Positions 4,401 to 19,383 of a stretch of 41,442 nucleotides of DNA are shown here, in pieces. The stretch is taken from the NCBI GenBank assembly GCA_029248455.1, contig JAQWJH010000015.1:1-41442 (forward strand), in the 5' to 3' direction. The stretch comes from Flavobacteriaceae bacterium. Its GTDB lineage: Bacteria; Bacteroidota; Bacteroidia; Flavobacteriales; Flavobacteriaceae. Position 1 is the first letter of the stretch. Each line of letters begins with the position of its first letter. Below the pieces are notes generated by a model that was not told the DNA's origin, did no database searches, and saw nothing but the letters and a program-made list of their open reading frames with translations. The position numbers were made by a program, and so were the translations under genes.

Positions 4401-5352
4401 TAAATTTATCACCTTCAATTATATAATATTCTCCTTTATTTATAGTTGCTTCAGTCGACTCCTCATTAATTTTAATTTTAGTATTATCGTAATGAGCTAC
4501 TATTAAGACATTTTCATAAGAATTATCTCCTTCTCCTTTAACAAAAATATATTCTTTACCTACTTTATCTAGACCGACTATTTGATCAATTCCATAATCT
4601 CTGGCTCCGCCATTTCCAAAACTACCATTTGCTGATCCAGTATTAACAACTACTGGCTTGTCCGAACTAACTAAAGTTCCGATTAATCCATCTCTGTTTC
4701 CCTCAGAATCAGTCACTTTAAGTGCTACAGTATAGCTTTCACCTTTATTTAAAATTATATTGTTGATTGGAAATTGTTCGGAATAATTTTGAATGACTAG
4801 TCCAGCAATGTTATTGTTAGACATGTTAATAGTTGTTTGGTTTTCGGTAGCCATAACCGAAAAGAAATTTAAATAATTGTTTCCAGGATTTCCTTTGTTA
4901 TCGTAAGTTCCGATTCTAAAAAGTTGCCCTAATGCATTATCACCTTTACTTACTAATGCCCCAGCTTGCGCATTTCCACCAGCATTCATCCTCACTGATA
5001 CATAAATTACGTCTTGAGATTCGATTATGTATCCTTTATTATTGGTTACAACACTGGTAGTTGCTGGATCTTGAAAAAGTTGTGAGTACCCATCATTTGC
5101 AATAAGAATTTTTTTAGGATTACTATTATTTACGATGTAGGAAATTTCTTCATCCAATGTTCCTCCAACAGGTTTTATTTTGAAAGAAACGTCACCATTA
5201 ATCGGAGTTGAAATGTAAAACCATTGATCTAAGGGATCTGCGTTCGAGGGACCGCTTGTTAGTGGGGGGATGTAGTGTACTTTACTTAACTGGGCTAGCC
5301 CTTTATTTACAAATGCTAATAAAAAAAAGAAAATGAATATTTTTCTAATCAC
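1..5352 (-). CDS. Giant modular secreted surface protein with IgGFc-binding-like region, C-type lectin domain and tandem repeats (C-terminus off left edge)
   Basis: This open frame has 1784 codons in the window and no stop before the left edge. The start is GTG at 5352: an in-frame TAA lies 14 codons upstream with no ATG between, and GTG gives a clean signal peptide (MIRKIFIFFFLLAF..GLAQ). Modules by residue: about 165-350 resembles the IgGFc_binding region of flavobacterial adhesins (ends in FFVPPLSC); 550-580 and 785-815 are Asp-rich DxDxDG calcium-type repeats; about 850-1080 holds Ig-like modules; about 1081-1237 is a C-type lectin fold with EPN and WND motifs; from about 1300 on there are tandem modules of about 100 residues opening with CDD. 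The layout fits a T9SS-exported adhesin, but the expected C-terminal sorting domain lies outside the window. It starts 55 bases after the isomerase gene, so it may share its transcript. Function as an adhesin is inferred. Confidence 0.85.
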   Translation of the reverse strand, partial: MIRKIFIFFFLLAFVNKGLAQLSKVHYIPPLTSGPSNADPLDQWFYISTPINGDVSFKIKPVGGTLDEEISYIVNNSNPKKILIANDGYSQLFQDPATTSVVTNNKGYIIESQDVIYVSVRMNAGGNAQAGALVSKGDNALGQLFRIGTYDNKGNPGNNYLNFFSVMATENQTTINMSNNNIAGLVIQNYSEQFPINNIILNKGESYTVALKVTDSEGNRDGLIGTLVSSDKPVVVNTGSANGSFGNGGARDYGIDQIVGLDKVGKEYIFVKGEGDNSYENVLIVAHYDNTKIKINEESTEATINKGEYYIIEGDKFTDGNMYVSSTEDVFAYQGVGGNSEANQGMFFVPPLSCESRGDVNNIAFIDEIGDNILDGGVTIVTKASAEVLINNIAITNQPAEITVEGPTSVTGKNEYVTFKVTGLSENVTVSSSDELYSAYYNQNGAATSGSFYAGFPSNPNVSLNLVASALGSCISSEGVSNVTFEVSNSGSYDTLQWIKKVPGTDTYSDIEGETNTTYKPLEIGTYAVRGTITCTGSIYKSSDIPISICPTDLDNDGIVDNLDLDNDNDGILNAVESLGNGIINISDPLNPSFSLTNGKASTVTFSAELNKVSTVDPESNSLTGAESGTFRSLVAAAESGTNTYTINTTSKASQGQDELLFFHAKKDPNSNHSPIDGENFIWRILPENRNITVWDPDDRLLIDTNYDGAYETGVTSFTGSEIHFKMNPNPNGETPYEFFASECKSITFIHRNINKDNNSSYSGFIETIDYNLNTDSDSNFLYDFLDLDSDDDGCNDLTEAGFESNDLDGDGVMGNGPPTFDNGKIDERGRFIGHTYPEPLKDISGEKYLFQKAGTAITIENQPQTASECESSNAIFQVTSGNPNPAESTITYKWQIFNSKDNLWNNLNESNTYNGTDSSTLTVNNVSNEMNGEKYRVNVSTNEFLCGIDSDEVTLNVVATPSKPVVEPIQIYCFDELNQPKISQLTLNDVDSTLSVNWYDAETGGDPIDPSTLLIHEKKYYAQVTNSNGCESTSRTETKAFISNPIISSTNQAICLNESTTISVTGVPQTAQDFINDHPELQLFLSYSGSNYFLKEEAMSWEAAYNLIQSYGAGASMYQINSKDEEDAVYDELSKRGWANAGTNPNNHFWLGLKQYNTEELNPNNKVDEGWYWLDGRPLTAEIANWAPGEPNDYGQGSFTEEGDEDYGQFDFGGVAKQWNDMQNIQASGNSWPLFEFNGTTSVVWGKYTNDEKTEFETFDETSSSITVSPIKTTVYFLEVTINGVLCRTEYTVTVNPNPKSNAINDLIYCDDNEDGDDTNGIIQSVNFETLNNTVLGDDQPLSDYTVSYHLSQANADDTTSTGLVSPYTNSIAGGEKIFIRVLNKTTGCFNTENSFNLTINTLPVANNVNTIIKCDDNSVGDDKDGVISSFDLSSQTAIILGDQSPDDFTVTYHISQDDANNTASTGLSSPYTNIKAGEEKIYVRVLNKSSECFRATTSFDIKVAPLPVLINPLIKIEQCDDDDDNDGVSVHNLTESQLIISSDYENETFEYYTDSDLNVDSRITDPTKFQNDPFNDSVYVKIITSNNCFRTSQIDITVAASQISKTFMNDNNTFYALCDDSPALTQDGIATFSSDILKDVKEKLIASNAKFSAQNIRVTLHTKSEEALSGENPIDVENDFTNINPTIQPIWARIVNIDISVFECLGFEQVATLYVEPKPIANAVTIAKQCDGDSVLDLDPQDGKFPFDTSAIQSTLVGSQTNVTTYYYLPDGTLIGNELPNP

Positions 5353-5407: not shown

Positions 5408-6334
5408 CTAACTATGTTTTTCAATCAATTTTTTTGTTAACTCAATTCCATCAACTTCAGACAATTTGTTTCCTTCAAATTCTATTCCCAAATATCCATA
5501 ATAATTGAATTTTTTTACAATTGACATCATATCTTCATAATTAATTGTTGTCTCATTGCCATTCTGATCAAAATCATATGATTTAGCACTTACAGCTTTA
5601 GCATAGGGCATGAGTTCTCTCATTCCTTTGTATTTGTCATATTCAATTTTACAAGGCCCACTATAAATAGAACCATTTTCTCTTTTTACACAGAAATTAC
5701 CAAAATCAGGAAGTGTTCCACAGTTAGCTAAATTTACATTTTTAATCACGTTTGCTAGTTCATTAGCAATAGAACTATTTCCACCGTGATTTTCAACAAT
5801 AATATTAACATTAAAATTTTCAGCATAATTACAAAGTAGCGTTAGCCCCTTTACAGAATTAATTTTCCATTTTTCAAGCTCATTTTCTCCTGTTAAGTTA
5901 ACTCTAATGGAGTGACACCCTAATTTATTTGCCATCTTAACCCATTTTTTGTGTTTATCAACGGCTTTATTTATTAAACTTTCATCACTTGATGCCAAAT
6001 CACCCTCATCATCCACCATAATTAAAAGATTCTTTATTTCATATTGATTGGATGAACTTTTTAAGATCTCGGTTAATTCATCTATTGAAATTTCATTAAG
6101 TATTGGTCTGTACAGCGTTGAAACATATTCAATGGCATCAAAACCAAGCTCGTTAGCTTTTTTTGCAAAATCAAGCGGGTCAAGTTTTTTTTCGTCTTTT
6201 ATCATTTTGTTAAGTGACCATTGAGCTAATGATATACCATTTTTTGAATCATTCCTTGAACAAGAAACTAAACTTGGTAAAGCTAGAACAGCAGAGCTAG
6301 AAAATAAAATTTCATTAAACTTTCTTCTTTCCAT
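5408..6334 (-). CDS. Exported sugar phosphate isomerase/epimerase-like TIM barrel lipoprotein
   Basis: 308 residues of the xylose-isomerase-like TIM barrel (AP endonuclease 2 family). Family signs are the early SLAQWSLN strand, FDAIEYVS, an IIVENHGG strand with a metal-type Glu, a PDFGNF strand and a late YLGIEFEG strand. The N-terminus carries an RRKF twin-arginine-like start, a hydrophobic run and a lipobox ending SLVSC, so the protein is probably exported and lipidated. Its ATG overlaps the stop of the permease-peptidase gene (TAATG), so translation is likely coupled. The substrate cannot be told from sequence; family members act on sugars, sugar phosphates or inositol derivatives. Confidence 0.85.
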   Translation of the reverse strand: MERRKFNEILFSSSAVLALPSLVSCSRNDSKNGISLAQWSLNKMIKDEKKLDPLDFAKKANELGFDAIEYVSTLYRPILNEISIDELTEILKSSSNQYEIKNLLIMVDDEGDLASSDESLINKAVDKHKKWVKMANKLGCHSIRVNLTGENELEKWKINSVKGLTLLCNYAENFNVNIIVENHGGNSSIANELANVIKNVNLANCGTLPDFGNFCVKRENGSIYSGPCKIEYDKYKGMRELMPYAKAVSAKSYDFDQNGNETTINYEDMMSIVKKFNYYGYLGIEFEGNKLSEVDGIELTKKLIEKHS

Positions 6335-9300
6335 TATTGAATTTTTTCAGTTGTTATTTTTTTTCTGTTGTCCTCTGAGTTTGTATCAATTAATTTATTG
6401 TACGGATCTACTCCAACTTCAATAGGTTCCTTATCAACAACAATCGATATTTTGTTGTGAATTGAATTTATTTTATGTTTTTTTAAGTATAATTCAACTT
6501 CTTCTTCATCTTCGTTTTCTCCAAAAATTCCAATATCAATATAATCAGATAAAAAGACTGAATATTCGGCTTTTCTCATTTCTTCAGTTTTATATGAAAT
6601 GGAATCTCTTTTATCATTTCCATAGAAAATTTTTCCTTTTTCATCATTTCTATATTTACTTACTTTAAACTCGATATCTACTTGATATTTTCCGTTTTCT
6701 AATTTTTTAGAATTTGTAGAAACAATTCTATTTTGATACAAAGTAATAGTTTCAAACATATCTTTTATTAAGTAATTTAAAGAATCTGGTGTTACTTCTT
6801 TAACATGATTAACTAAATCAATAGTTGTTGTGTAAGGTGGCTCTTGAAAGGCTACTTTATTTACATATTTACTAAGAGATTTATTCAGATTTTTCTCTCC
6901 AATGTAGTCACTTAAGGCATAAAAAATTAATGATCCTTTCTGATAGTGAATGTATCCCTGACCATCATTATACATTAATGCATTTTCTCTTTTACTCTCA
7001 AACGTTCTAGAAGTTAAATATGTATCCAATGATCTTTTTAAGAATTTACGCATTTTCTTTTTTCCATTAACCTGTTCAATGACTTTAAGAGAAACGTATT
7101 CAGATAAACTTTCTGAAAGCATTGTGGCACCAAGTACGTCTGCTCCAATGACCTGATGTGCCCACCATTGATGAGCCACCTCGTGAACAGAAACAAAAAA
7201 AGCATAATCATTTCCCCCTTCGTCAGAATCATCAACATCTGCAATAAAGCCTATACTTTCAGAAAATGGAATTGTATTTGGGAAAGATTGAGCAAATCCC
7301 CCACTAGTTTTTGGAAACTCAATAATTCTTAACTGCTTATGCTGATACGGACTAAAGTTTTCAGTGCAGTAATCCAAAGCTGCTTTCATTCCTTTCATCA
7401 TTCTATCCAAGTTGTATTCGTGACCCTTATGAAAATATATTTCAAGATTTACATCATTCCATTTATCTTTTTTAATTTCATACTTAGCTGAATTAAAAGC
7501 ATAAAAATTTAATATTTTACTATCCATTTTATAGTGAAAGTATCTTCTGTCACCATCAATCCATTCTTTTTGTAAATAACCCGGAGCAATTGCTATTTGA
7601 TCTTTGGATGTACTTACAGTAGCTTCAAAATCTATCCAATCCGCATCTTTAGCGATGTAAGTATTTCCTAATGCTGTTGAATCCGAAGGATGAGGCTTTA
7701 ATTTGTTTTTAGGTAATCCGTATTTTTTCCTAGTTTTATCGTCTCTTAATTCACCTAGTTGGTATCCAAGAGATGGAAAAATACTACTATTAATAAACGT
7801 TCCATTAGAAATTACACTTGAATTATTTCTAAGAATTGTATTGGGTTTGTTTTTAATACTAAATTCAAGTTTTAAACTATCTCCTGGTTTTAGAGGGGAT
7901 TTTAGTTTATAAATGTCAAGATTATAAATAGTGTCTTCTAAGACTAGCTTGTTTTCCTTGTTGAATTTAAAAGTACTAATAAGAGAATTATGATCTAAAA
8001 AAATACTATCAATAGATTCTTGGGTCTTATTAATCATCAAATATTCTCCAGAAGCGCTTAAATCTCTGGTTTTAGGAAATATTTCAACATCAACATTTAC
8101 TGAGATTATTCTAGGTTGAGCATATGCTTCGTATTTTTTATATTTCTTTTCTCCCTCAACTGTTTGTAATTCACTTTCTTTTGATGAAGTTCTTTTATTT
8201 AAAATGTTATTCGTATAATAAATATAGGTTCCTGATGATAAAAAAATGAGTGTAAAAAGTGAGATAAAAAATGGGTATTTTCCATTAAATCTACTTTTAG
8301 CAATAAGAACTCTTTCCTTAAAATTATTAGGAAGTCCTCTAAAATAAAATAAGGATGTTAAAATAAAGAATACAATTCCAAGAGAAAACCAATACATTTT
8401 ATATATAAAATATCTGTTAAGAGTATCTCCATATCCGTTCATGTCAGAATATGAAAAACCAGGTCCTTGAGTGTATTTAAAAATAGATTGCTCTATTCCT
8501 GCCAAACCTAGTAGAGGAATTCCTATTAAAAGAACTATCATGACAAATAGCCCAACGTATGGACTGCTAATTAGGGTTTGTACCAAAAAGGCCAGAAATG
8601 ACCATAAAATAAAGTAAATAAGGTTTAAAACAATTAATTCATAAAGGTAAAGTGATATCTCATAATCATAAAACCCTTTGTAGGTTTGAAAAATTAGCCC
8701 AGTAATCATTATTAATGAGGACAAGGCTATTTGCATTTTGAAAATGGCAAGAAATTTTGACCCAAACAACACCCAGTTCTTAGTTGGACTTACATCAATA
8801 AGTTGATTAATATTAGCAATTCTTGATCTATGAATTAATATACCTGCGTATAAAAATGTACAAATATTAATTGCTAATGTAAATGTTGAGCCTGCTTCAA
8901 GCATTCTCCAAGTTCTTGGGAGAGTAGAGGTTCCAAAAACATTTCCGAGCTCAGAAAGCCCAATTAAATTTATTAATAAACCTACTAAAACAATGCATAT
9001 AAAAGGCCAGCTTTTTACAATAACAAAAAAATCAACTGTTGATAATTTCCAAAGTGTTTTTAATTCATTTTTAAATGAAAAATCAAAACTTATTTTAGGT
9101 AAATTAATTTTTATAATCCCTCCAAAATTTGATTTAGTTATTCTTTTGGATTCTTTAGATTTAAACGAAAAACTAAACGCGTTTTGACTAAAACTAAAAG
9201 TTTTATAAATCGCTCCAAACAATATAATCCCTAATGCTCCCCATAATAATCTATTATATATTAAAACCTCTCTGATTGGAAGATACAATTCATTTTGTTC

Positions 9301-9990
9301 AGAAACTGTCCAATATCTGGAATAATATTGAATTGCAGAATCTCCAAATGGATCTAAAATAGCAGCAATTAATCTTTTTTCTGGATCGTCAAAAAGGCTT
9401 ACCAAAAACCCTTGTGAGATTAATAATATAAGAACCGTTATAAATCCTGCAGAAATATTTCTTGTGAAAGTGACTATTCCAAAAACAATCGCACCAATGA
9501 ACAACATGTTTGGAAGGATGTATATTAAATAGACATCCGAATAAGATTTAAAATCAAAACTTTGTACGATTTCTTGATTTGTTCCAGGGAGAACAAATCC
9601 AATTCCAATTCCTAATGCTACTATTAGTACGATAATATTAACTACAAAAATTCCACTAAAAAACTTAGCTAATAAATATTGAAGTTTTGTAAAAGGGTAG
9701 GAATAGAGTATAGTGTGCATTTCACTCTTGTAGTCTCTATAAACGGCAACACCAATGATTGAAGGGTATAGAAAAATAAGAAGTCCAGATAAGCCTCCAA
9801 ATAAACCTGCTATGCCCAGAGGAGAGTTAACTATTTTTGAAGAACCCGTTGTAACTGTTAAAAAGTCGAAAAGACCAGCTGAGGAACCTGACATCAAAAG
9901 GGCAATAAAAAGAAATATAACCGAATATATGTAGAAAGCTGGTTTTCCAAACCAATGCTTTAGTTCATTGTAAAAAATTGTAAGAAACAT
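6334..9990 (-). CDS. ABC-2 type permease fused to an M1-family metallopeptidase domain
   Basis: 1218 residues. Residues 1 to about 600 hold many hydrophobic segments in ABC-2 permease style, beginning with MFLTIFYNELKHWFGKPAFY. After a last membrane span near 580, residues from about 630 form an extracytoplasmic M1 aminopeptidase-like region. The zinc motif is HEVAH (His936, Glu937, His940), followed by QWW and a downstream SESLSEY that supplies the third ligand, Glu960. The spacer to that Glu is 19 residues rather than the usual 18. The GxMEN exopeptidase motif of classic M1 enzymes is not seen; GGFAQSFPNTIPFSES is in its place. Such permease/M1 fusions are known in Bacteroidota. The ATPase gene lies 13 bases upstream and is the obvious partner. 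Substrate unknown. Confidence 0.9.
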   Translation of the reverse strand: MFLTIFYNELKHWFGKPAFYIYSVIFLFIALLMSGSSAGLFDFLTVTTGSSKIVNSPLGIAGLFGGLSGLLIFLYPSIIGVAVYRDYKSEMHTILYSYPFTKLQYLLAKFFSGIFVVNIIVLIVALGIGIGFVLPGTNQEIVQSFDFKSYSDVYLIYILPNMLFIGAIVFGIVTFTRNISAGFITVLILLISQGFLVSLFDDPEKRLIAAILDPFGDSAIQYYSRYWTVSEQNELYLPIREVLIYNRLLWGALGIILFGAIYKTFSFSQNAFSFSFKSKESKRITKSNFGGIIKINLPKISFDFSFKNELKTLWKLSTVDFFVIVKSWPFICIVLVGLLINLIGLSELGNVFGTSTLPRTWRMLEAGSTFTLAINICTFLYAGILIHRSRIANINQLIDVSPTKNWVLFGSKFLAIFKMQIALSSLIMITGLIFQTYKGFYDYEISLYLYELIVLNLIYFILWSFLAFLVQTLISSPYVGLFVMIVLLIGIPLLGLAGIEQSIFKYTQGPGFSYSDMNGYGDTLNRYFIYKMYWFSLGIVFFILTSLFYFRGLPNNFKERVLIAKSRFNGKYPFFISLFTLIFLSSGTYIYYTNNILNKRTSSKESELQTVEGEKKYKKYEAYAQPRIISVNVDVEIFPKTRDLSASGEYLMINKTQESIDSIFLDHNSLISTFKFNKENKLVLEDTIYNLDIYKLKSPLKPGDSLKLEFSIKNKPNTILRNNSSVISNGTFINSSIFPSLGYQLGELRDDKTRKKYGLPKNKLKPHPSDSTALGNTYIAKDADWIDFEATVSTSKDQIAIAPGYLQKEWIDGDRRYFHYKMDSKILNFYAFNSAKYEIKKDKWNDVNLEIYFHKGHEYNLDRMMKGMKAALDYCTENFSPYQHKQLRIIEFPKTSGGFAQSFPNTIPFSESIGFIADVDDSDEGGNDYAFFVSVHEVAHQWWAHQVIGADVLGATMLSESLSEYVSLKVIEQVNGKKKMRKFLKRSLDTYLTSRTFESKRENALMYNDGQGYIHYQKGSLIFYALSDYIGEKNLNKSLSKYVNKVAFQEPPYTTTIDLVNHVKEVTPDSLNYLIKDMFETITLYQNRIVSTNSKKLENGKYQVDIEFKVSKYRNDEKGKIFYGNDKRDSISYKTEEMRKAEYSVFLSDYIDIGIFGENEDEEEVELYLKKHKINSIHNKISIVVDKEPIEVGVDPYNKLIDTNSEDNRKKITTEKIQ

Positions 9991-10003
9991 TGATATGAAT
10001 GGT

Positions 10004-10897
10004 TTATGAATTAATTAAATTTTCTTGATCTTCTTTTAGAGCAATAAAATAGACATCGTCCAGCTGAGGTTCAGCCTTTTTAAATTCTTTTGAAAGTTTT
10101 TCTTCAGAATAAACTCTTATTGTCAATGTATTATCAACATTGTAATTGGAAGATAAAATATTATAATCAATTTCTGCTTGCTCCAGTTCATCTCTCAAAA
10201 CTGTTTTAGTCCAAATTTTATTGTTGATTTCTTTTGTAGCTTCAATAGGCTTAACATGCTTTAAAATTTTACCACCATTTAATATGGCCATGTCATTACA
10301 CAACTCTTTAACATCATCAACAATGTGAGTTGAGAATATTACTGTACTACTTGTACCAACTTCTCTTAAAACATTTAAAAAACGTTGTCTTTCGGCAGGA
10401 TCTAAGCCAGCAGTTGGTTCGTCAACAATAATTAATTTAGGATTGTTAAGTAGCAATTGCGCTATACCAAAACGTTGTTTCATTCCACCTGAATACCCAT
10501 CAACATTTTTTTTCTTTACATCTTGTAGATTAGTAATGTCGAGTAGTTCGTTAACTAGTTTATCCCTTTCTTGATTATTAGAAATACCTTTAAGAAGAGC
10601 AAAATAATTCAATAATTCCTCAGCTGACATTTTAGGATATACTCCAAAAGATTGAGGAAGGTAGCCAAGAACTTTTCTGAGAGATAATTGATCATTAAGC
10701 ACATCAATATCATTAAAATTTATATTTCCTGAATCAGGGGATTGTAAAGTTGCTATTGTTCTCATTAATGTTGATTTTCCAGCTCCGTTAGGACCTAATA
10801 AGCCAAACATTCCCTTACCTATTTCCAAACTCACATTATCTAAAGCTTTTACTTTATTTTTATAAGTCTTGGTTAAATTATTGATTATTAATTTCAT
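10004..10897 (-). CDS. ABC transporter ATP-binding protein
   Basis: 297 residues with a full set of nucleotide-binding motifs: Walker A GPNGAGKST (about 35-43), Q-loop PQSFG (81-85), signature SGGMKQ (136-141), Walker B LIIVDEPTAGLD (about 155-166) and an H-loop His at 191 in FSTH. The final 90 or so residues are an accessory tail typical of ABC-2 exporter ATPases. It is the first gene of a minus-strand set with the permease-M1 fusion 13 bases downstream, and most likely powers that exporter. It is divergent from the FAD oxidoreductase at 11007. A TATCTTTA element about 30 bases upstream of its ATG resembles the Bacteroidota -7 box TAnnTTTG. Confidence 0.93.
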   Translation of the reverse strand: MKLIINNLTKTYKNKVKALDNVSLEIGKGMFGLLGPNGAGKSTLMRTIATLQSPDSGNINFNDIDVLNDQLSLRKVLGYLPQSFGVYPKMSAEELLNYFALLKGISNNQERDKLVNELLDITNLQDVKKKNVDGYSGGMKQRFGIAQLLLNNPKLIIVDEPTAGLDPAERQRFLNVLREVGTSSTVIFSTHIVDDVKELCNDMAILNGGKILKHVKPIEATKEINNKIWTKTVLRDELEQAEIDYNILSSNYNVDNTLTIRVYSEEKLSKEFKKAEPQLDDVYFIALKEDQENLINS

Positions 10898-11006
10898 ACT
10901 GATTATTAAAATTTATAGATGGTAAAGATATAAATTAAACTTATTTCAGAATAATTATAAACGATAATTAACTAATTATAATTATTATAAATCGTAAATT
11001 AGAAAT
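10898..11006. promoter_or_regulatory. Divergent promoter region between the ABC operon and the FAD oxidoreductase
   Basis: 109 bases, very AT-rich. On the minus side a TATCTTTA element lies about 30 bases before the ATPase ATG. On the plus side TAAATTAG (10995-11002) lies 4 bases before the oxidoreductase ATG. Two short related strings, AAACGATAA and AAATCGTAA, sit around 10960-11000. Consistent with promoters reading both ways; no regulator can be named. Confidence 0.4.
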
Positions 11007-12593
11007 ATGATAGAATCCTACAAGAGAAAAAACAATTTGGAAGATAATTATGATGTCATTGTAATTGGATCTGGGATGGGTAGTTTAACTGCAGCTGCTT
11101 TGCTTTCCAAGGAAGGTAAAAAAGTATTGGTATTGGAAAGACATTATGTTGCAGGAGGTTTTACTCACGTTTTTAAGAGAAAGGGATATGAATGGGACGT
11201 AGGTATTCACTACATTGGAGAGGTACAAAATAAAAATAGTCCTATTAGAAAAATGTTTGATTATGTTTCTCAATGTAATTTAAAATGGGAGGATATGGGA
11301 GAAGTCTACGATAGGGTAGTGATTGGAGAAAAAAAATATGATTTTGTAAAAGGTGTTGAGAATTTCAAAAATACACTTGTTTCATATTTCCCTGATGAAT
11401 CTAAAGCAATTGAAGATTATATTCAATTAGTTTTTGACTGTAATAAAACAATGAAAAAATTTTATATTGAAAAGGCACTACCAAATTATATAAGTTTTCT
11501 ATTTGCTCCTTTTTTTAGAAATAAATATTTAAAATATTCTTCAAAAACCACTTATGATACTATTTCATCTTTAACTAATAATCAAGAACTAATCAAAGTT
11601 CTTACTGCTCAATACGGAGATTATGGCCTTCCTCCTAAACAAAGTAGTTTTGCAATGCATGCTTCAGTGGTTAAGCACTACTTTAAAGGTGGAAGTTTTC
11701 CAATTGGTGGTTCCTCAGAAATTGTTAACACGATAAATCCAGTAATTGAAAAATCAAAAGGAAAAATTGTTGTAAAAGCTGAGGTCAAAGAGATTATTAT
11801 TGAAAAAAATAGAGCCAGAGGAGTGGTTATGGATGATGGTAGAAAGTTTTACTCAAATACAATAATCAGTGGTGTGGGTGTTTTTAACACATTTAATAAA
11901 TTAATTAATGAAAAGTTAAGCGTTAAACTTGGTTTTAAGAGAGATTTACTTTCTGTTAAACCTTCAGTTGCTCATGGTTGCTTATATATTGGATTAAATG
12001 GTACGGCAAAAGAATTAAAATTACCCAAACATAACATATGGATATATCCTGATAAAACAGATCATGATTCATCAGTTGCTAATTATCTAAATGATCAAAA
12101 TTCCGACTTTCCTCTTGTTTATATATCATTTCCCTCAGCTAAGGATCCGTCTTGGGAGAAGAGATATCCTGGAAAAAGTACAATTGATGTTATTACTTTA
12201 CTTCCATATGAATCATTCTCAAAATGGGAAGGAACCAAGTGGAAAAAAAGAGGGGTTGATTATGAAAAATTTAAAGAAGAAATTTCTAAAAGATTACTAA
12301 ACGAGCTCTTCAAGCAATTACCTCACTTAAGAGACTCTATCGATTGCTATGAATTATCAAGCCCATTAACAACAAAAAATTTTGTTAATTATGATAAAGG
12401 AGAATTATATGGATTGGATCATACTCCAAAAAGGTTTAATCAAAAATTTTTAAGACCCAGAACATCTGTTAAAGGACTTTATTTGACTGGTCAAGATATT
12501 GTAAGCGCAGGAGTTGGAGGGGCGCTTTTCTCTGGATTAATCACATCAACTGCCATTACTGGAATTAATTTTATGAAAAAGATTTATAAATAA
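11007..12593 (+). CDS. FAD-dependent oxidoreductase of the retinol saturase / phytoene desaturase family
   Basis: 528 residues. A Rossmann FAD-binding motif opens the protein (VIVIGSGMGSLTAAALL, then VLVLERHYVAGG), followed by the WDVGIHYIG segment characteristic of all-trans-retinol 13,14-reductase-like proteins. The C-terminal FAD contact is GLYLTGQDIVSAGVGGAL. Full-length for the family. Members reduce or isomerise polyene or carotenoid-like substrates; the actual substrate here is unknown. It is a single gene, divergent from the ABC operon, and ends in a strong hairpin terminator. No carotenoid genes are visible nearby. Confidence 0.88.
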   Translation: MIESYKRKNNLEDNYDVIVIGSGMGSLTAAALLSKEGKKVLVLERHYVAGGFTHVFKRKGYEWDVGIHYIGEVQNKNSPIRKMFDYVSQCNLKWEDMGEVYDRVVIGEKKYDFVKGVENFKNTLVSYFPDESKAIEDYIQLVFDCNKTMKKFYIEKALPNYISFLFAPFFRNKYLKYSSKTTYDTISSLTNNQELIKVLTAQYGDYGLPPKQSSFAMHASVVKHYFKGGSFPIGGSSEIVNTINPVIEKSKGKIVVKAEVKEIIIEKNRARGVVMDDGRKFYSNTIISGVGVFNTFNKLINEKLSVKLGFKRDLLSVKPSVAHGCLYIGLNGTAKELKLPKHNIWIYPDKTDHDSSVANYLNDQNSDFPLVYISFPSAKDPSWEKRYPGKSTIDVITLLPYESFSKWEGTKWKKRGVDYEKFKEEISKRLLNELFKQLPHLRDSIDCYELSSPLTTKNFVNYDKGELYGLDHTPKRFNQKFLRPRTSVKGLYLTGQDIVSAGVGGALFSGLITSTAITGINFMKKIYK

Positions 12594-12594
12594 A

Positions 12595-12620
12595 AAAAGA
12601 GGATTTTAAAACCCTCTTTT
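12595..12620. terminator. Bidirectional hairpin terminator
   Basis: An 8-bp perfect stem, AAAAGAGG (12595-12602) and CCTCTTTT (12613-12620), encloses a 10-base loop. It lies between the convergent oxidoreductase and SnoaL-like genes, with A and T runs on the outer sides, so it can serve both strands. Confidence 0.75.
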
Positions 12621-12639
12621 CTTCTTTACATAGATAAGA

Positions 12640-13161
12640 TTATTGTTGTGAAGCAGCAACTTCAGCATCCAGTAAAGTAGGATCAAAAAAGTGATAAACC
12701 GCTACAATTTTTTCATTTTCAAATCTAGCTGCATGATGCACAGGTATTTGTATTTCATTTCCAGTAATTTTTCCTGTTGCTGTCCAGTAAAACCAAGCCA
12801 AAGACCAAACTGACCCATTTTCATATGTTGCAGTCGTAACATTAGGAGGTTGAATTTTACTATTAGAAATATTATCAAACAACGAATGGTGCATAGCGCC
12901 AGCTCCAACCCATTCTTCTTTGGAAACTTTAGTTGAATTGAAATAGAAATTACCATCATCAGCCATTAAATAGGCAGAATCCTCAAACTTATTTGCGATA
13001 TAATTATCCATAAGTTCTCTAGTTAGCATGGATTCTTTATTTGAATCACTAGCAACTCCAGACCAACCACCATATTCCATATTAGGAGCAGTTTCTTTAG
13101 GACTTGGAGATTCACATGATAGTAAAAGAGCAATTAATGTTATGCTTAACAATTTTTTCAT
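12640..13161 (-). CDS. SnoaL/NTF2-like lipoprotein
   Basis: 173 residues. The lipoprotein signal MKKLLSITLIALLLSC has Cys at 16, followed by a short linker. The body, from about residue 40, has the pattern of the NTF2/SnoaL cone fold: an opening helix (MLTRELMDNYIANKF), a strand with DDGNFYFNSTKVS, a helix, then strands such as SLAWFYWTATGK, PVHHAARFENEKIVAVYHFFD. Such proteins are small ligand-binding or enzyme folds and the sequence does not say which. It appears to be transcribed on its own and shares the hairpin terminator with the gene facing it. Confidence 0.75.
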   Translation of the reverse strand: MKKLLSITLIALLLSCESPSPKETAPNMEYGGWSGVASDSNKESMLTRELMDNYIANKFEDSAYLMADDGNFYFNSTKVSKEEWVGAGAMHHSLFDNISNSKIQPPNVTTATYENGSVWSLAWFYWTATGKITGNEIQIPVHHAARFENEKIVAVYHFFDPTLLDAEVAASQQ

Positions 13162-13223
13162 TTTTTTTGGTTTTATATCAATTAAATCTCAATATAATAA
13201 AACTTTGTAATCAATTCAAAAAA

Positions 13224-14492
13224 TCATTTTGCAAGTTTTTCAAGAGTTAGTCCCTGAAATAAGATGGTAAATAAGACTACCATGTAAGTTAGAAAAAGAA
13301 TAAGATTTTTACCCTCTCCAATTTGATCGGGTAAATTTAAAGCTAAAGCAATACTTAATCCTCCTCTTAATCCTCCCCAAGTGATAATAAATGAAGTTCT
13401 TTTTTCAAACTTTTTAAAAAATGATAAAATTTTAATAGGAATTGAAACACCAATTCCTCTTGATGAAACAACTAAAATAATGGTCAAAAGAGATATTAAT
13501 AAGTATCCTGAAACAAAGTTTTGAAAAATTGGAATGATCTCAAGTCCAATCAAAATAAATAGTATTGCGTTTAAAGTTTCGTCTAGTAGATGCCAAAATT
13601 TATAAACATAATCACCCATAGCTTTTTGAACACCATCTTCAATTCTATCAGTATCTATATTTCTATTTAAAAATAGTCCCATCATCACCACACCTAATGG
13701 ACCTGAAAAATGAAATTTGTATGAAACAACAGAAACTAAAAGCACTAAAGAAAGTGTAATTAACACCTCTAGTTCTACATGTTCATTTTCAATATACCTA
13801 ACAAGCTTTAAACCAAGATAGCCCAATAAAGAACCCAGTAGAACTCCACCAATAACCTCTGTAGCAAATAACATGCTTACTCCTTCAGGAGTTACATTTT
13901 CAACCCCCATAATTTTTATTTTTAAAAGCGTAAGAAATATAACTACTCCAATACCATCATTAAAAAGTGATTCGCCTGCAATTCTAGTTTCGGTAACTGG
14001 AGATAGGTTCATTTTTTTTACAATAGAAAGAACTGCAATTGGATCGGTAGGAGCAATTAGTGCACCAAACAATAAACAGTCAACATATGTTAAACCTAGT
14101 TCGTTTAGTCCAAATATGGGTTGTTCAATTAACCAAAAAACACCAGAGCCTACAGCAAATGTTGAAAATACTACACCAAAACTTGCTAAAAATAATATGG
14201 TGACTTTATCCTTTAATAATTCATGAACATTAACACTTATTGCTCCTGCAAACAATAAAAATGGAAGCATGACATCAATTAATAGAATACTAAAATCAAA
14301 ACTTTTAGTTAGTGAAGTTACAACTGCTAAAAATTCAGGAAAAACAATACCCACTATTAAAACAATAATAGATAAACCAATTGCTAAAATCATTAAACCG
14401 ATTGTTTGCGGTAGTTTTAGCAAGCGTAAATTTATAATTGAAAAAAAAGAGGCTAAAAGAAGAAGTACAGTGGTTATTTCTAAAAAGTTCAT
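13224..14492 (-). CDS. CPA1-family cation:proton antiporter
   Basis: 422 residues, almost entirely hydrophobic, with about 12 membrane segments. The family core is visible in DCLLFGALIAPTDPIAVLSIVKK, with the conserved TDP, and in ETRIAGESLFNDGIGVVIFL, with the conserved ND pair that carries protons in NhaP-type exchangers. A late ITWGGLRGGLSIALAL motif is also typical. It probably exchanges Na+ or K+ for H+ across the inner membrane. It starts 3 bases after the lactonase stop, so it is the last gene of the OsmC / SMP-30 / antiporter operon. No C-terminal TrkA-type regulatory domain is present. Confidence 0.92.
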   Translation of the reverse strand: MNFLEITTVLLLLASFFSIINLRLLKLPQTIGLMILAIGLSIIVLIVGIVFPEFLAVVTSLTKSFDFSILLIDVMLPFLLFAGAISVNVHELLKDKVTILFLASFGVVFSTFAVGSGVFWLIEQPIFGLNELGLTYVDCLLFGALIAPTDPIAVLSIVKKMNLSPVTETRIAGESLFNDGIGVVIFLTLLKIKIMGVENVTPEGVSMLFATEVIGGVLLGSLLGYLGLKLVRYIENEHVELEVLITLSLVLLVSVVSYKFHFSGPLGVVMMGLFLNRNIDTDRIEDGVQKAMGDYVYKFWHLLDETLNAILFILIGLEIIPIFQNFVSGYLLISLLTIILVVSSRGIGVSIPIKILSFFKKFEKRTSFIITWGGLRGGLSIALALNLPDQIGEGKNLILFLTYMVVLFTILFQGLTLEKLAK

Positions 14493-14495
14493 ATG

Positions 14496-15500
14496 TTATT
14501 TTTTTAAAGCGATTCTTGCAACGAATGAAAAACCTGTAACGTACAAGTAATTTTCATCCGAATCAAATGCACAGTTGGTTAGCATATCCTTGAATTTTAT
14601 ATTAGCCAATAACCTTCCATCATTTGACAAAACTAATATTCCATTGGGGCCAGTTGTAAAGATATTTCCAGATGAGTGTATTTTAAGTCCATCAAAATTT
14701 CCTGGATTTGCTTTGGCTAATTCTGTCCCATCAAAAAATAATTCAGATTTATTATCATTTTCTAAATCATATCTTAAAATAACAGGATTTTCTGTCGTAT
14801 TAGAACTGTTTACGTATAAGTACCTTTCGTTATTTGACAAAGCGATTCCGTTTGGTAAACTGAGTTCAGATGATATTAATTCTATTCCAGACTCATCACT
14901 TAACTTATATATACCACTAAAATCCAACTCTTTTACAGATTCGTCAAAAGACCAATCACTTAAATTCATAAAACCATAAGTTGGATCTGTAAAATAGATA
15001 GCTCCGTTGGATGCTATGGCTATGTCATTAGGACTGTTAAATCGCTTACCATCATATTTATCAATTATTGTTTCAAAATCTGGATCGTCTGTAGCGGAGT
15101 TTTTTAATTTAGCTAATCTTCTATCTCCATGTTGGGCGATGATTAAATCACCATTTTTATCAAATGATAATCCATTAGCACCAGAAAGACCAATACCATC
15201 AATTACAGGAGCGTAGTTTGTAAATCCTGAAGGAGAGATGTATGTCTGGTAACCCTCAGTTTCGTTCCACTTATAAATTTTATTCATAGGAACTTGAGTA
15301 AACAACAATGAAGATGATTTGTTATCCCATAAAGGACCTTCAGCTACATTAACAGAGTCAACTATATACTCTATTTCGGCAGTCCTATCAATAATATTTA
15401 AAACAGAATCCTCAAAAATGATTATTGATTCGTTGTTTTTAACTGGGCTTGCACAAGAGATTAATTGAAAAATTATAATTGTAGTAAATATTTTTTTCAT
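14496..15500 (-). CDS. SMP-30/gluconolactonase family lipoprotein
   Basis: 334 residues. Lipoprotein signal MKKIFTTIIIFQLISC with Cys at 16. The six-bladed propeller of the SMP-30/LRE family is recognisable: VAEGPLWD (metal-type Glu), ANGLSFDKNGDLIIAQHGDRR, FNSPNDIAIASNGAIYFTDP, LPNGIALSNNERYLYV, and NFDGLKIHSSGNIFTTGPNGI (metal-type Asp). Members hydrolyse sugar lactones using one divalent metal. It has a clear paralogue in the window at 34489. Tight operon: OsmC ends 10 bases before, the antiporter begins 3 bases after. Substrate not known. Confidence 0.88.
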   Translation of the reverse strand: MKKIFTTIIIFQLISCASPVKNNESIIIFEDSVLNIIDRTAEIEYIVDSVNVAEGPLWDNKSSSLLFTQVPMNKIYKWNETEGYQTYISPSGFTNYAPVIDGIGLSGANGLSFDKNGDLIIAQHGDRRLAKLKNSATDDPDFETIIDKYDGKRFNSPNDIAIASNGAIYFTDPTYGFMNLSDWSFDESVKELDFSGIYKLSDESGIELISSELSLPNGIALSNNERYLYVNSSNTTENPVILRYDLENDNKSELFFDGTELAKANPGNFDGLKIHSSGNIFTTGPNGILVLSNDGRLLANIKFKDMLTNCAFDSDENYLYVTGFSFVARIALKK

Positions 15501-16018: not shown

Positions 16019-17206
16019 ATGAAATTAATTTTAACTTTTTTAAGCTGCTTTTTGTTGTTTTTTTCATATTCGCAAAACACAGCTCCTGTTGCAAAAAATC
16101 AAATAATTGCCACAGATAATTATACAACTCTTAATATTACTTTAGTGGCTACTGACGCTGACAATGATGTATTAACTTATATAGTAAAATCTCTCCCGTC
16201 CAGTGGAACCCTAAAAAACGGATCTTCAATAATTACTCAAGCTCAAATCCCACTTGTTTTACCTGCCTCAAGTTTAAGCTATGTTCCTAGTGCTAATTTT
16301 ACGGGATCTGATTCATTTACTTTTGTGGCCAGGGACCTATCAATAGCATCATTTGCTTTAGCTAATGGTTTGACAATAATTAATAATAATGGAGAACCCG
16401 TAACTTATAATAAACCCTCAGGAAAAACTTATTTTTTGATTGATTCTAACACAGGAAAGCCTGGATTTTCACCTGTTGATTGGACTGATGCAAAAGCAGC
16501 TACCGATAGTTATGATGGAGCGAAGATGTATATCATATTGAATGCTGAAATGGAAAAATTAGTTTGGGATGGTTTGGGTTCTATGGGCTTAAATGGCTCT
16601 GGAACTAGATATTGGCTAGGTCTTTATCAAGACAAAACTTCTCCGGATTATGCGGAACCTGGAAGAGAAAATCAAAATTGGGGAGGTTGGACTTGGGTCG
16701 ATGGAGTTACATTGAAAGATAGAGGATACCAAAACTGGTGGCCAAATGAGCCTAATAATGCTGGACAAGAAGATTATGGCCAAATGAATTTTGGTAATAA
16801 TGGGATTAAGTGGAATGATATGCGACCAGGTAATGGGCAATCATGGCCATTATTTGAATTTTCCATAAAGGATGATGGTAGTGAAAGCAATTTGGCTACT
16901 GTTACAATTAACGTTTCTCAAAGCACATTCAGTTTACAAGATGATAATAATAAGATTATAGTAGGTAGTTGTACATGTAATGGTAAAAATGACGGAACAT
17001 TGACGCTATCCGTTGAAGATGCTAGGTATGATTACACTATTAGTGTTAGTGGGTTGACAGAACCAGTAAAAATAAAAGGTTCTGATAAAACAGCTAGTGT
17101 TACGGGACTAGGTAAAGGAACGTACACTGTTTGTTTTAAAGTTGACGAGAACCCCGCTTACGAACAATGTTTTGAGGCTACAATAACTGAACCAAATTCA
17201 TTATAA
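16019..17206 (+). CDS. Secreted protein with cadherin-like repeat, C-type lectin domain and a duplicated C-terminal domain
   Basis: 395 residues. I chose ATG 16019 because it begins a clean signal peptide (MKLILTFLSCFLLFFSYSQ); an in-frame ATG at 15977 adds 14 unlikely residues. Residues about 20-110 match tandem-95/cadherin-like repeats (APVAKNQ, TDADNDVLTY, ANFTGSDSFTFVARD). Residues about 138-280 are a cysteine-free C-type lectin fold with WLGLYQ, the EPN sugar/Ca2+ motif (WWPNEPNN) and WND (KWNDM). Residues 302-395 form a domain nearly duplicated in the gene at 17953. EPN is associated with mannose-type specificity in animal lectins; applying that here is inference. No typical T9SS sorting domain follows. 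First gene of a three-gene cassette, 9 bases before the next. Confidence 0.85.
   Translation: MKLILTFLSCFLLFFSYSQNTAPVAKNQIIATDNYTTLNITLVATDADNDVLTYIVKSLPSSGTLKNGSSIITQAQIPLVLPASSLSYVPSANFTGSDSFTFVARDLSIASFALANGLTIINNNGEPVTYNKPSGKTYFLIDSNTGKPGFSPVDWTDAKAATDSYDGAKMYIILNAEMEKLVWDGLGSMGLNGSGTRYWLGLYQDKTSPDYAEPGRENQNWGGWTWVDGVTLKDRGYQNWWPNEPNNAGQEDYGQMNFGNNGIKWNDMRPGNGQSWPLFEFSIKDDGSESNLATVTINVSQSTFSLQDDNNKIIVGSCTCNGKNDGTLTLSVEDARYDYTISVSGLTEPVKIKGSDKTASVTGLGKGTYTVCFKVDENPAYEQCFEATITEPNSL
16922..17203 (+). repeat. Shared 94-residue C-terminal domain, copy 1
   Basis: Counted by eye, 74 of 94 residues are identical to copy 2 (18625-18906) with no gaps. Key features are LQDDNNK at the start, SCTCNG, the run GTYTVCFKVDENP, YEQCFEA, and a final EP.SL directly before the stop. 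It resembles the module that in many flavobacterial secreted proteins stands just before a sorting domain. Confidence 0.9.
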
Positions 17207-17215
17207 TTATACAAT

Positions 17216-17947
17216 ATGAAAAACTTATTTAAACTACTAACTTTTCTTTTTTTTAATTTAATTTTCATTGTAAGCTGCAGTGATAATTGTTGTGGTTACG
17301 AAGATACTTCTTCTGCAAATGGATCTTCAGGTGGAGGAGCTGAAGTTTCTGGAGCCCCAGGTGCAGCAACATTAATTTCACCACCCTCAAATAATAGTTG
17401 TGAATCTGCCACTGTTGTTGATGGATTTTACAGTAAGGTAAGTTTTAGCTGGACTAAGACCAGTGAGACAGATACCTATAACTTGACTTATACAGATTTA
17501 TCAAATAATGATACCAAGACAAAGACATCAATCTCAACTAATTCTACAGAAATTCAATTGGGAAGGGGGAAAGCATATGCTTGGAGTGTTCAATCAATAA
17601 ATTCTAATTCAAAAAGAGGACCAAAAAGTTCAACTTCTAAATTTTATCTTCAAGGAACACCAGTGTTCAATAAAGTTCCTTTAGCAGCAGTGCTTTCTAA
17701 TCCAGAAATTAATGGAAATGAAATTACCTTTAACTGGACAGGGAAAGATCTTGATGCTGGGGATACTCTAACTTATTCAATTTATATTGATAAAATTGAT
17801 GGCAAACAATCACCTGTCAAAACCTCTTTAAGTAACCCATCATTAGTCTTAAATTTAGACTCTGGATCAACTTATTATTGGAGAGTTAAGAGTACAGATC
17901 AAAATAATAATAGCAGCTTTTCATTAATATCAAAATTTACTTTATAA
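17216..17947 (+). CDS. Lipoprotein with two FN3/Ig-like domains
   Basis: 243 residues. The signal MKNLFKLLTFLF..IFIVSC places the lipidated Cys at 21, followed by SDNCC, then a Gly/Ser/Ala-rich linker to about residue 50. Acidic or Asn residues just after the Cys fit the Bacteroidota surface-lipoprotein export pattern, so outer-face display is plausible. Two beta-sandwich domains follow (about 50-145 and 146-243). Each has fibronectin-III-like signs: VSFSWTKTSETDTYNLTY / AYAWSVQSIN in the first, ITFNWTGKDLDAGDTLTYSIYID / YYWRVKSTD in the second. No catalytic motif is seen. It lies between two secreted proteins that share a C-terminal domain, with gaps of 9 and 5 bases, and may be their cell-surface anchor or partner (inference). 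Confidence 0.8.
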   Translation: MKNLFKLLTFLFFNLIFIVSCSDNCCGYEDTSSANGSSGGGAEVSGAPGAATLISPPSNNSCESATVVDGFYSKVSFSWTKTSETDTYNLTYTDLSNNDTKTKTSISTNSTEIQLGRGKAYAWSVQSINSNSKRGPKSSTSKFYLQGTPVFNKVPLAAVLSNPEINGNEITFNWTGKDLDAGDTLTYSIYIDKIDGKQSPVKTSLSNPSLVLNLDSGSTYYWRVKSTDQNNNSSFSLISKFTL

Positions 17948-17952
17948 ATGTT

Positions 17953-18909
17953 ATGAAAAAAATTTTAAAATTTTTCTTGTTGTTTTTTTCAGCTGTTTTA
18001 TTTGCTCAAGAAAAGCCGTGTTCTAATAATTCAACCCTAACTGTTTCTGGAGATTTTAATGTGATAGCAAGCGGAACATATCCAATGATTATTCCAGCAC
18101 AAAAAATTTCTGGTTCTGGCTCTGGTTCACAAGTCTTTAGAAAAAATGTTGATATAAAGTTATCACTTGGAGCTAATGATGTTTTTGAAAGTTGTGTTGT
18201 AAAGTTAGATATCCAAGATTTTGATGATGGTTTACAATTTGATATTGACGGAGTGAATCTTTTAAATTTTCAACAAAAACACTGGGATAATTCATTTGGT
18301 GCTAATACAACTGAATTTAATGGAAACGGTAGATTTGTCACCTCAGGTGGCATGTGGACACCTTGGACAGGTCAAGGAAATCCAAAACTAGAAATTTCCA
18401 CAGGAAAGGTTCAATTAATGGTAGATACTAAAAATGGAGGAAGAGAAGATGCTTTACAATTTATGGATAGTACTGTAGCTGATTGGAAATTTATTTCATC
18501 TTTTACGTACGATTGTTTAGAAGGTTTCAATTTATTAATTGGAAATCAAAATGGAGGAGGAGGACCCTCTGGTATAAATGCTGAATTAACAGTTGAGGCC
18601 TACGTTGGGCCATGTGATTCAAAAAATAATTTTACTCTCCAAGACGACAACAATAAGATTTCAGTAGGAAGTTGTACTTGTAATGGATTAAACGATGGTA
18701 CTTTAGCACTTTCAGTTGAGGATTCTAGATATAATTATACAATTAGTGTAAGTGGAGTTTCTGAACCAATAACCATCCAGGGTTCTGAAAAGACAGCTAA
18801 CGTTACAGGTCTTGCTAAAGGCACTTATACTGTTTGTTTTAAAGTAGATGAAAATCCACTTTATGAACAATGTTTTGAGGCAGTTATTAATGAACCTGAC
18901 TCACTTTAA
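17953..18909 (+). CDS. Secreted protein with unrecognised beta-rich domain and the duplicated C-terminal domain
   Basis: 318 residues. Signal peptide MKKILKFFLLFFSAVLFAQ. Residues about 25-220 form a domain I do not recognise. It appears beta-rich, contains Gly/Ser stretches (SGSGSGSQVF), aromatic clusters (GMWTPWTGQGNP) and a Gly-rich loop (NQNGGGGPSG), and could be a binding module. Residues 225-318 repeat the C-terminal domain of the lectin protein at 16019. Last gene of the cassette, 5 bases after the lipoprotein. No enzyme motif and no canonical T9SS sorting domain are seen, and the stop comes at the same place in the shared domain as in the lectin gene. Confidence 0.8.
   Translation: MKKILKFFLLFFSAVLFAQEKPCSNNSTLTVSGDFNVIASGTYPMIIPAQKISGSGSGSQVFRKNVDIKLSLGANDVFESCVVKLDIQDFDDGLQFDIDGVNLLNFQQKHWDNSFGANTTEFNGNGRFVTSGGMWTPWTGQGNPKLEISTGKVQLMVDTKNGGREDALQFMDSTVADWKFISSFTYDCLEGFNLLIGNQNGGGGPSGINAELTVEAYVGPCDSKNNFTLQDDNNKISVGSCTCNGLNDGTLALSVEDSRYNYTISVSGVSEPITIQGSEKTANVTGLAKGTYTVCFKVDENPLYEQCFEAVINEPDSL
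18625..18906 (+). repeat. Shared 94-residue C-terminal domain, copy 2
   Basis: Second copy of the domain at 16922-17203, ungapped. Four cysteines are conserved in position (SCTC, VCF, QCF). The DNA differs at many third codon positions, so this is an old duplication rather than a recent conversion. Confidence 0.9.
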
Positions 18910-18927: not shown

Positions 18928-19383
18928 TTAAATAATTTTTAAAATCTGAATTTTGGAATTATTGAATGATATTTTTTCATTTTCTTTTTTACCAATTAAT
19001 AACTTCCCAATAGGACTTTTGTCGGAAATGCAATAATAGTTACTGTTTTTAAAAGCAAATGGTTTAGCAGAAACTGCTAAGTAATAATTATTTGCTTTAG
19101 TTACTACAATAGACCCAAGACTTATTTTATTTAAAGAATTAACATTATTTATTCTTAAAAGAAATTCATAATTTTTTTCGACTTCTTTTAATTGATTTCC
19201 AGTTTTTTCTATTTCAAGCTGTATAAGTGCTCTTCCAGTTTCATGCTTATCTCCTGCACTACTTTTTGTCTCTGAATTTAAAGACTCATAAAGTAAATCT
19301 AAACTTTTATTATACCCATGCAGTTTGGATTCTAAAAAACTCTTGCAATGATCGAAAAGTAAAGTTTTAATTGTTCTGTTCAT
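18928..19383 (-). CDS. GreA/GreB-like transcription elongation factor protein
   Basis: 151 residues. The N-terminal half is helical and charged and could form the Gre coiled coil (SSAGDKHETGRALIQLEIEK). The C-terminal half matches the Gre FKBP-like domain: LGSIVVTKANNYYLAVS, then ISDKSPIGKLLIGKKENEKISF, equivalent to the SPLGKALLGK segment of GreA. Gre factors rescue backtracked RNA polymerase. This type, with a divergent N-terminus, is common in Bacteroidota, and whether it stimulates cleavage is uncertain because the acidic coiled-coil tip cannot be placed with confidence. It is convergent with the cassette, 18 bases apart. Confidence 0.7.
   Translation of the reverse strand: MNRTIKTLLFDHCKSFLESKLHGYNKSLDLLYESLNSETKSSAGDKHETGRALIQLEIEKTGNQLKEVEKNYEFLLRINNVNSLNKISLGSIVVTKANNYYLAVSAKPFAFKNSNYYCISDKSPIGKLLIGKKENEKISFNNSKIQILKII

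Follow-up and report, generated by a model that had tools for sequence, protein, structure and literature searches.

The window considered here is the whole stretch of 41,442 nucleotides that was analysed, namely contig JAQWJH010000015.1 (C72) of a 1.5-Mb Flavobacteriaceae assembly that is 73% complete (GCA_029248455.1; genome G000 below). Three adjacent genes on its + strand raise the question of why two secreted proteins with different front parts should end in the same domain, with a lipoprotein encoded between them. The first gene (16019..17206) encodes protein A, 395 aa in length, with a Sec signal peptide, a Big_9 Ig-like domain, a C-type-lectin-like domain and a C-terminal domain (16925..17203) that is beta-rich and contains the CxC motif SCTCNG. 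The second (17216..17947) encodes lipoprotein B, 243 aa, in which the lipobox IVS-C21 and the sequence CSDNCC are followed by a Gly/Ser-rich stretch and two fibronectin type III (FN3) domains. The third (17953..18909) encodes protein C, 318 aa, with a Sec signal peptide, a front of ~205 aa and a second copy of the C-terminal domain (18631..18906). The domain common to A and C is designated DOM. As described below, a DOM-bearing secreted protein and an FN3 lipoprotein are a conserved gene pair, in which DOM probably serves to dock the secreted protein on the lipoprotein.

The ends of A and C were compared directly. BLASTP yielded one strong match, ungapped, with 75/96 residues identical and an E value of 7e-51, which reaches the last residue of both proteins. 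Of the last 94 residues 74 are identical, as are 207 of the last 282 coding bases. These values, the gaps of 9 bases between A and B and of 5 bases between B and C, and the presence of an FN3-like lipoprotein between the two copies of DOM all confirm what an initial annotation, made from the sequence alone, had stated. Outside the shared end, only chance-level BLASTP matches were observed between A and C (best E value 0.057, in the signal peptides).

Family searches gave Big_9 in A at 42 bits, above its cut-off, and the C-type lectin family PF00059 at 21.9 bits, just under its cut-off of 22.6. The SprB repeat, PF13573, was scored in A at 15.5 bits, compared with a cut-off of 28, and was not matched by C. 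No family match was obtained for the front of C, which is 87-88% identical among three species. The signal peptide of A, as judged by eye, is probably cut before Gln19, and C too has Gln after its likely cut; mature A contains four cysteines, all within DOM. In B, PF00041 (fn3) was matched in two stretches at 30.8 bits (cut-off 25). The lipobox, IVSC at residue 21, was read in the sequence and as a pattern in the relatives. B is a lipoprotein with two FN3 domains, and not an outer-membrane β-barrel of the PorP/SprF kind.

The genome that contains the window encodes an intact SprA translocon and type A sorting tails, and the type IX secretion system (T9SS) is therefore present. Neither A nor C has a type A (PF18962/TIGR04183) or type B (TIGR04131) T9SS sorting domain at E ≤ 1; the type C (ChiA-type) model, cl41395, was not sought. 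A gene on the opposite strand begins 18 bases past the end of C, and only 9 bases separate A from B, so that no sorting tail is hidden downstream of either protein.

Relatives of DOM and of the lipoprotein were searched for in 60 genomes drawn from the genus, family and order, the window's own genome included. Lipoprotein matches were found in 32 genomes, in at least four of which (G029, G044, G048 and G057) they are weak matches in longer frames, and DOM matches in 30, some of which have only weak matches inside giant proteins. Adjacency was counted over 72 of the 96 lipoprotein rows and 75 of the 113 DOM rows, fragments, internal repeats and long proteins being left out. DOM was situated upstream, on the same strand, at 47 of the 72 lipoprotein places. 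Some of the other 25 are contig ends, an example being a lipoprotein of the window's own genome (C36:354) that follows a sorting tail (C36:43-264). The spacing from DOM to the lipoprotein falls into two discrete ranges, 13-50 bases and 450-767 bases, referred to as the short and the long class, respectively.

A scan of named genomes, covering the best 78 loci of at least 443 stretches that encode relatives, provided 82 lipoproteins, and 71 of these have DOM in the gene just upstream. By class, 62 are long, nine short (one with a broken cargo gene, L121) and 11 other; the last comprise five contig ends, three broken cargos, one cargo with a sorting-tail-like end and no DOM, and two lipoproteins without a cargo. 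An overlap of 4 bases joins the cargo and lipoprotein genes in 43 of the 62 long pairs. These neighbours were found mostly in the Flavobacteriaceae, with one record from the Sphingobacteriaceae; the long-class pairs include those of Flavobacterium daejeonense, Maribacter and Psychroflexus. L126, L154, L139 and L077:5136-6308 have cargo genes that are apparently frameshifted, with the downstream lipoprotein intact. In another family of the order, a DOM cargo is succeeded by a 611-aa lipoprotein (L079:5133-6968) that combines several FN3 units with many cysteines.

Profiles were used in ten genomes as a control, with 39 of 60 lipoprotein rows (small repeats left out) and 45 of 46 DOM rows (E ≤ 6.3e-11). 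The type A tail matches in these genomes number 348. DOM was found upstream of 34 of the 39 lipoprotein matches; of the five without it, three are fragments, one is a repeat inside a multi-FN3 lipoprotein of G038 which itself follows a DOM cargo, and one (G023:C1:171116) is complete. In the opposite direction, a lipoprotein was found downstream of 34 of the 45 strong DOMs. G034 and G040, with 37 and 72 type A tails, have no lipoprotein and no strong DOM, the three DOM matches near E 1e-3 in G040 all being in one other protein. From these counts it is apparent that the lipoprotein tracks DOM, and not T9SS cargo at large. A DOM-bearing secreted protein and an FN3 lipoprotein are thus a conserved, usually overlapping gene pair, and the view that they form a functional unit is well supported. 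The initial annotation had named, as an outcome that would count against its proposal, that DOM should occur mostly inside longer proteins with no link to the lipoprotein. DOM does occur mostly in longer proteins, but these, too, are usually followed by the lipoprotein.

The two classes differ in what follows DOM, which is either 2-3 residues or about 150. In the long class, DOM is succeeded by a small second domain with an invariant CQG cysteine (the CQG domain) and then by a T9SS type A sorting tail. Seven long cargos, chosen from the 62, were scanned, and all seven end in a PF18962 tail. They comprise a glycoside hydrolase family 5 (GH5) cellulase with carbohydrate-binding modules (CBMs), a CBM35/CBM6 protein, a family 11 rhamnogalacturonan lyase, three reprolysin-like metalloproteases and an alpha-amylase family protein. 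T9SS tails are described as being cleaved off after export (PMC10202324), and DOM and the CQG domain would therefore form the end of the mature enzyme. As first annotated, DOM is the true C-terminus in the window and precedes a T9SS tail elsewhere; it ends the protein in the nine short rows and is followed by about 150 residues in the 62 long ones. The suggestion that the shared end is a docking or sorting signal fared less evenly. Docking fits the pairing of the genes; sorting is unlikely, since an ordinary sorting tail comes after DOM in the long relatives, and the idea of DOM as itself the sorting signal was set aside for this reason.

Some long cargos resemble one another closely at their ends. 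At L078 (G015:C3), three adjoining long cargos (frames 1061-5287, 6130-10374 and 10448-14803) have identical last 60 residues, and C43 and C36 of the window's own genome also have much of the C-terminal end in common. The C-terminal module seems to have been homogenised between copies in these cases.

In the short class, to which the window belongs, DOM reaches to within 2-3 residues of the end of the protein, and both the tail and the CQG domain are gone. Cassettes of this class were found in 10 of the 22 sampled species of the window's genus. Their lipoproteins form one clade (11 rows, with the window counted twice; support 100/99), nested in a larger long-class clade (support 99/91) in which further sequences from the genus are also placed. 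This branching points to a single origin of the short class, seen in one genus, in which the sorting tail was lost and DOM was kept. The three-gene layout that had been envisaged is not a fixed one. The order is A-B-C in the window's own genome and in G012, A-B in G017, G007 and G018, A-C-B in G008 and G016 (split over contigs), and A-A-B in G003, while repeated pairs occur in G015 and G011 (one copy broken). OsmC-like and antiporter genes adjoin the cassette in 8 of the 10 species, the exceptions being G011, which has other neighbours, and G008, whose contig is too short to tell. The cassette of the window is also adjoined, on the - strand (18928-19383), by a gene for a protein of 151 aa whose match to the GreA/GreB C-terminal family falls slightly short of the cut-off; it lies beside the cassette in G017, G012 and G015 as well.

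The origin of the fronts was also considered. The front of C was found in eight of the 60 genomes, four times in a cassette and four times inside long frames, in which Big_9-lectin units are followed by the C front and then by a further module. Seven of the 10 cassette genomes have a copy of the lectin, at about 60% identity or more, in a long frame; the other three, G000, G012 and G018, in which no such copy was detected, are all incomplete. All 17 short-class fronts (from ten loci, with a few fragments) match giant adhesins, with best E values ≤ 1.2e-50, and both of the giant adhesins with the same modules that were scanned end in the type B sorting domain TIGR04131. Since the fronts match modules of giant adhesins, an adhesin is apparently issued in pieces, and the cassette looks like an adhesin divided into separate, DOM-ended parts. 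The fronts of A and C, first annotated as unrelated, do not match each other, but both are modules of the same giant adhesins.

Two further observations concern such proteins. A secreted frame of at least 1784 aa on the - strand of the window (1-5352), cut by the window end, has a C-type-lectin-like module (1636-2091) that is 45% identical to the lectin of A, and several relatives have similar frames close to the cassette. At L096, L098, L099 and L100, genes that appear by eye to be PorP/SprF-like lie beside giant SprB-repeat proteins and end in PIPCGCK, a CxC tail resembling the published SprF motif.

Conservation of cysteines was examined in both partners. Besides the lipid cysteine, one lone cysteine in the first FN3 domain is present in every complete lipoprotein row; by pattern it was found in 80 of 82, and of the two misses one is a truncated frame and the other has the cysteine at +39. 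Most long-class lipoproteins have no further cysteine, and a second early one, as in L191 (CWSC), makes the lipobox call doubtful. Among the cargo cysteines, C1 is present in 61/61 long rows and C4, the CQG cysteine, in 62/62. C2 and C3 occur together in 50 rows and are jointly missing from 12, never one without the other, which fits a bonded pair. C0, two residues before C1 (CxC), is found in 9/9 short and 0/61 long rows, and C4 is missing in the nine short rows. In nine short lipoprotein rows, twin cysteines lie next to the lipid cysteine (CSDNCC in B). The cysteine gains of DOM and of the lipoprotein thus coincide in the short clade. As a precedent in this phylum, the twin cysteines one residue apart (CxC) of SprF and PorG are described as forming intermolecular disulfides with GldK (PMC12635249).

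Distances among lipoproteins and among DOMs are correlated, with a rank correlation of 0.48 over 59 of the 62 long pairs and of 0.43 after removal of the same cargo's tail, a value as high as which was reached in 0 of 500 permutations. Because neighbours share history, and because the CQG domain scores as high as DOM, this mirror-tree result is taken as support only. DOM also changes apart from the protein that carries it, as the C proteins of G000 and G008 have fronts that are 88% identical and DOMs that are 71% identical. Between different proteins of one cassette, identity of the DOMs is 81% in G000, 87% in G012, 82% in G008 and 93% in G003. Independent change of this kind is what would be expected of a part matched to a common partner, with gene conversion between neighbours as the likely way.

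DOM and B were modelled with AlphaFold2 as one chain, the stop of A being read as glycine. When the rows of the alignment used for folding were aligned in a trial, about 7 residues of each lipoprotein row were misplaced; two other joint alignments, in which signal peptides or FN3 domains fell onto DOM, were rejected. In the linked model, DOM is predicted as a beta domain with fair confidence (pLDDT blocks 81-89 over residues 31-100), and B as two confident FN3 folds (pLDDT blocks 83-98). Single FN3 domains of B were superimposed on PDB entries with a root-mean-square deviation of about 2 over about 90 residues (Z about 11), and the Foldseek and VIA lists for the linked model were filled by FN3 proteins. 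Searches of the PDB by sequence revealed no close solved relative of DOM (best E value with the profile 0.002, KIAA0319-like); the lipoprotein profile matched a neogenin FN3 chain only (E 4e-4), and the last 250 residues of the GH5 cargo matched sorting tails only (best E 0.001). A model of C from a 4-row alignment without the giant-adhesin copies had a mean pLDDT of 52. Relatives of A were not found in viral contigs, nor relatives of B in plasmids.

Taken as a whole, these data are probably best explained if DOM is a docking module and the FN3 lipoprotein its dedicated outer-membrane socket. The DOM of the cargo would bind the lipoprotein, which would hold the cargo on the cell, and both docking and retention on the cell appear likely. 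In the usual type A cargo, DOM would be situated close to the C-terminus of the protein once it is exported and matured; in the window's genus, single adhesin modules would be presented as separate subunits by the same clip. The joint may, with less confidence, be sealed by a disulfide. The lipoprotein's invariant cysteine has no partner within that protein, and two invariant cysteines (C1 and C4) are left in the long cargo once the C2/C3 pair is set aside; in the short clade, C4 is lost with the tail, the new C0 makes CxC with C1, and the lipoprotein has gained its twin cysteines. Such an intermolecular bond is possible. The CxC of DOM may instead stand in for the lost CQG cysteine as an internal partner, which would leave the twin cysteines of the lipoprotein unexplained. 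The tail-less proteins would most likely cross the outer membrane with the lipoprotein or on a partner's signal, if at all, and any surface display of A and C is uncertain because they have no sorting signal.

A more far-reaching version of the docking proposal is unlikely. It holds that the clip is covalent, with a DOM-lipoprotein disulfide formed by exchange from a disulfide of the cargo (C1-C4 in tailed proteins, CxC in the window's clade), that it would give flavobacteria another general means of fixing T9SS type A enzymes to the cell and would have become independent of the T9SS tail in the window's genus, and that a giant adhesin would be re-issued there as lipoprotein-mounted modules that surface with the lipoprotein.

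Several results weigh against docking on the lipoprotein. The CQG domain is correlated with the lipoprotein at 0.51 (0.47 with the tail removed), at least equal to DOM, and the tail retains 0.28 with DOM removed; contact in long cargo could thus involve the CQG domain, although the short class has DOM alone. The DOM of C in the window has 91% identity to the A-DOM of G017 and 87% to that of G012, but 81% to the A-DOM of its own cassette. DOMs group by clade, and strict concerted evolution within each cassette fails. Moreover, conversion between neighbours needs no contact between the products, and proximity alone could suffice. The linked DOM-B model has confident domains but no confident interface, its pTM being 0.50. 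Eleven of the 45 strong DOMs were scored without an adjoining lipoprotein; among them, the one in G016 lies at the end of a contig and another is actually followed by the multi-FN3 lipoprotein (G038), so that about nine remain. Conversely, G023:C1:171116 is a complete lipoprotein without an upstream DOM, L173 (Wenyingzhuangia) and L178 (Flavicella) have lipoproteins without any DOM cargo upstream, and the lipoprotein of L164 follows a frame with a tail-like end and no DOM match. As to location, the lack of type A or B sorting domains (E ≤ 1) in A and C leaves their position at the surface unsupported. An acidic lipoprotein export signal, SDDFE after the lipid cysteine, is described for F. johnsoniae (PMC5080379). 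Acidic residues at this place in the lipoproteins resemble such published signals, but the count (at least two at +2..+9 in 63 of 80 relatives) has no control set, and B itself reads CSDNCCGYED.

Three other explanations may be weighed against the same data. There is a modest chance that A and C stay in the periplasm, where B would hold them beneath the outer membrane, and are perhaps a leftover of a surface adhesin, as the lack of sorting domains and the broken cassette copy in G011:C7 would suggest. The high identity of the C fronts among three species and the presence of the cassette in 10 of 22 species indicate, however, that the cassette is not decaying as a whole, and fronts made of lectin and adhesin modules would be expected to be used outside the cell. 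The chance is small that the lipoprotein is a helper of secretion or folding, and not an anchor; such a helper would engage DOM in the periplasm, maintain the cargo in a competent state and pass it on to the T9SS. The gene pairing and the 4-base overlaps would suit a helper made together with its client, and type B cargo is reported to need a clustered PorP/SprF gene for secretion, as SprB needs SprF (PMC10202324). But the short class retains DOM and the lipoprotein without a tail, from which it follows that the pair has a role for which the tail is not required, and type A tails are numerous even in the two control genomes from which the lipoprotein is absent.

Genes that lie side by side are duplicated and transferred jointly, DOM is similar to the common SprB repeat (albeit under the cut-off), and the tail also correlates with the lipoprotein. 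These points would agree with an inherited operon whose products make no contact, DOM being a mere spacer before the tail. This explanation is nevertheless quite improbable, as the lipoprotein follows DOM behind many unrelated enzyme fronts, tail-rich genomes without DOM are also without the lipoprotein, both partners gained cysteines in the same clade, and DOM persists in proteins that have no tail for it to space. Docking of DOM on the lipoprotein remains the explanation preferred here.

T9SS type A proteins are described as being retained on the cell by attachment to anionic lipopolysaccharide (A-LPS; PMC9143113). The long-class relatives resemble such cargo in their PF18962/TIGR04183 tails, and differ in the addition of DOM and an adjoining lipoprotein; A and C of the window differ further in having no tail. 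A lipoprotein socket encoded beside glycosidases, lyases and proteases would be a second retention way for type A proteins, and the DOM-lipoprotein pairs narrow the candidate partners in flavobacteria that degrade polysaccharides to a few. The tail-less clade would be a natural deletion that separates docking from secretion, and it raises the question of how, or whether, adhesin modules without a sorting signal get out.

No description of the DOM-FN3 lipoprotein pair was found among the titles and abstract openings surveyed, subscription papers and preprints being outside the survey, but it has likenesses to several known systems. Like the SprB repeat (PF13573), DOM opens around a C-x-G...DG stretch and has a late cysteine, and its profile picks up SprB-type repeats at low scores; unlike that repeat, DOM falls under the Pfam cut-off, has further conserved cysteines and occupies a fixed place near the protein end. 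The genes of TANFOR polymorphic toxins are described as coming directly after that of a T9SS substrate in which SprB repeats are combined with a C-terminal domain (CTD), in neighbourhoods rich in SprB, Fn3 and CTD (PMC7073777). The loci described here likewise have a protein directly downstream of a secreted substrate, but that partner is an FN3 lipoprotein, and no TANFOR, toxin or immunity domain was seen in the window scans. The closest parallel in manner of working is with type B cargo and PorP/SprF, for which pairs such as SprB-SprF and PG1035-PorP a dedicated outer-membrane partner has been proposed to hold the cargo (PMC9143113; PMC10202324). In both, an adhesin-type or exported protein is encoded beside a dedicated outer-membrane partner. 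Here, however, the partner is an FN3 lipoprotein and not a β-barrel, the contact module would be DOM, and the cargo is of type A (long class) or has no sorting domain (the window). By analogy, the DOM-lipoprotein pair would appear to work like the pairing of type B cargo with SprF, yet it departs from that pairing in the very features by which the latter is defined.

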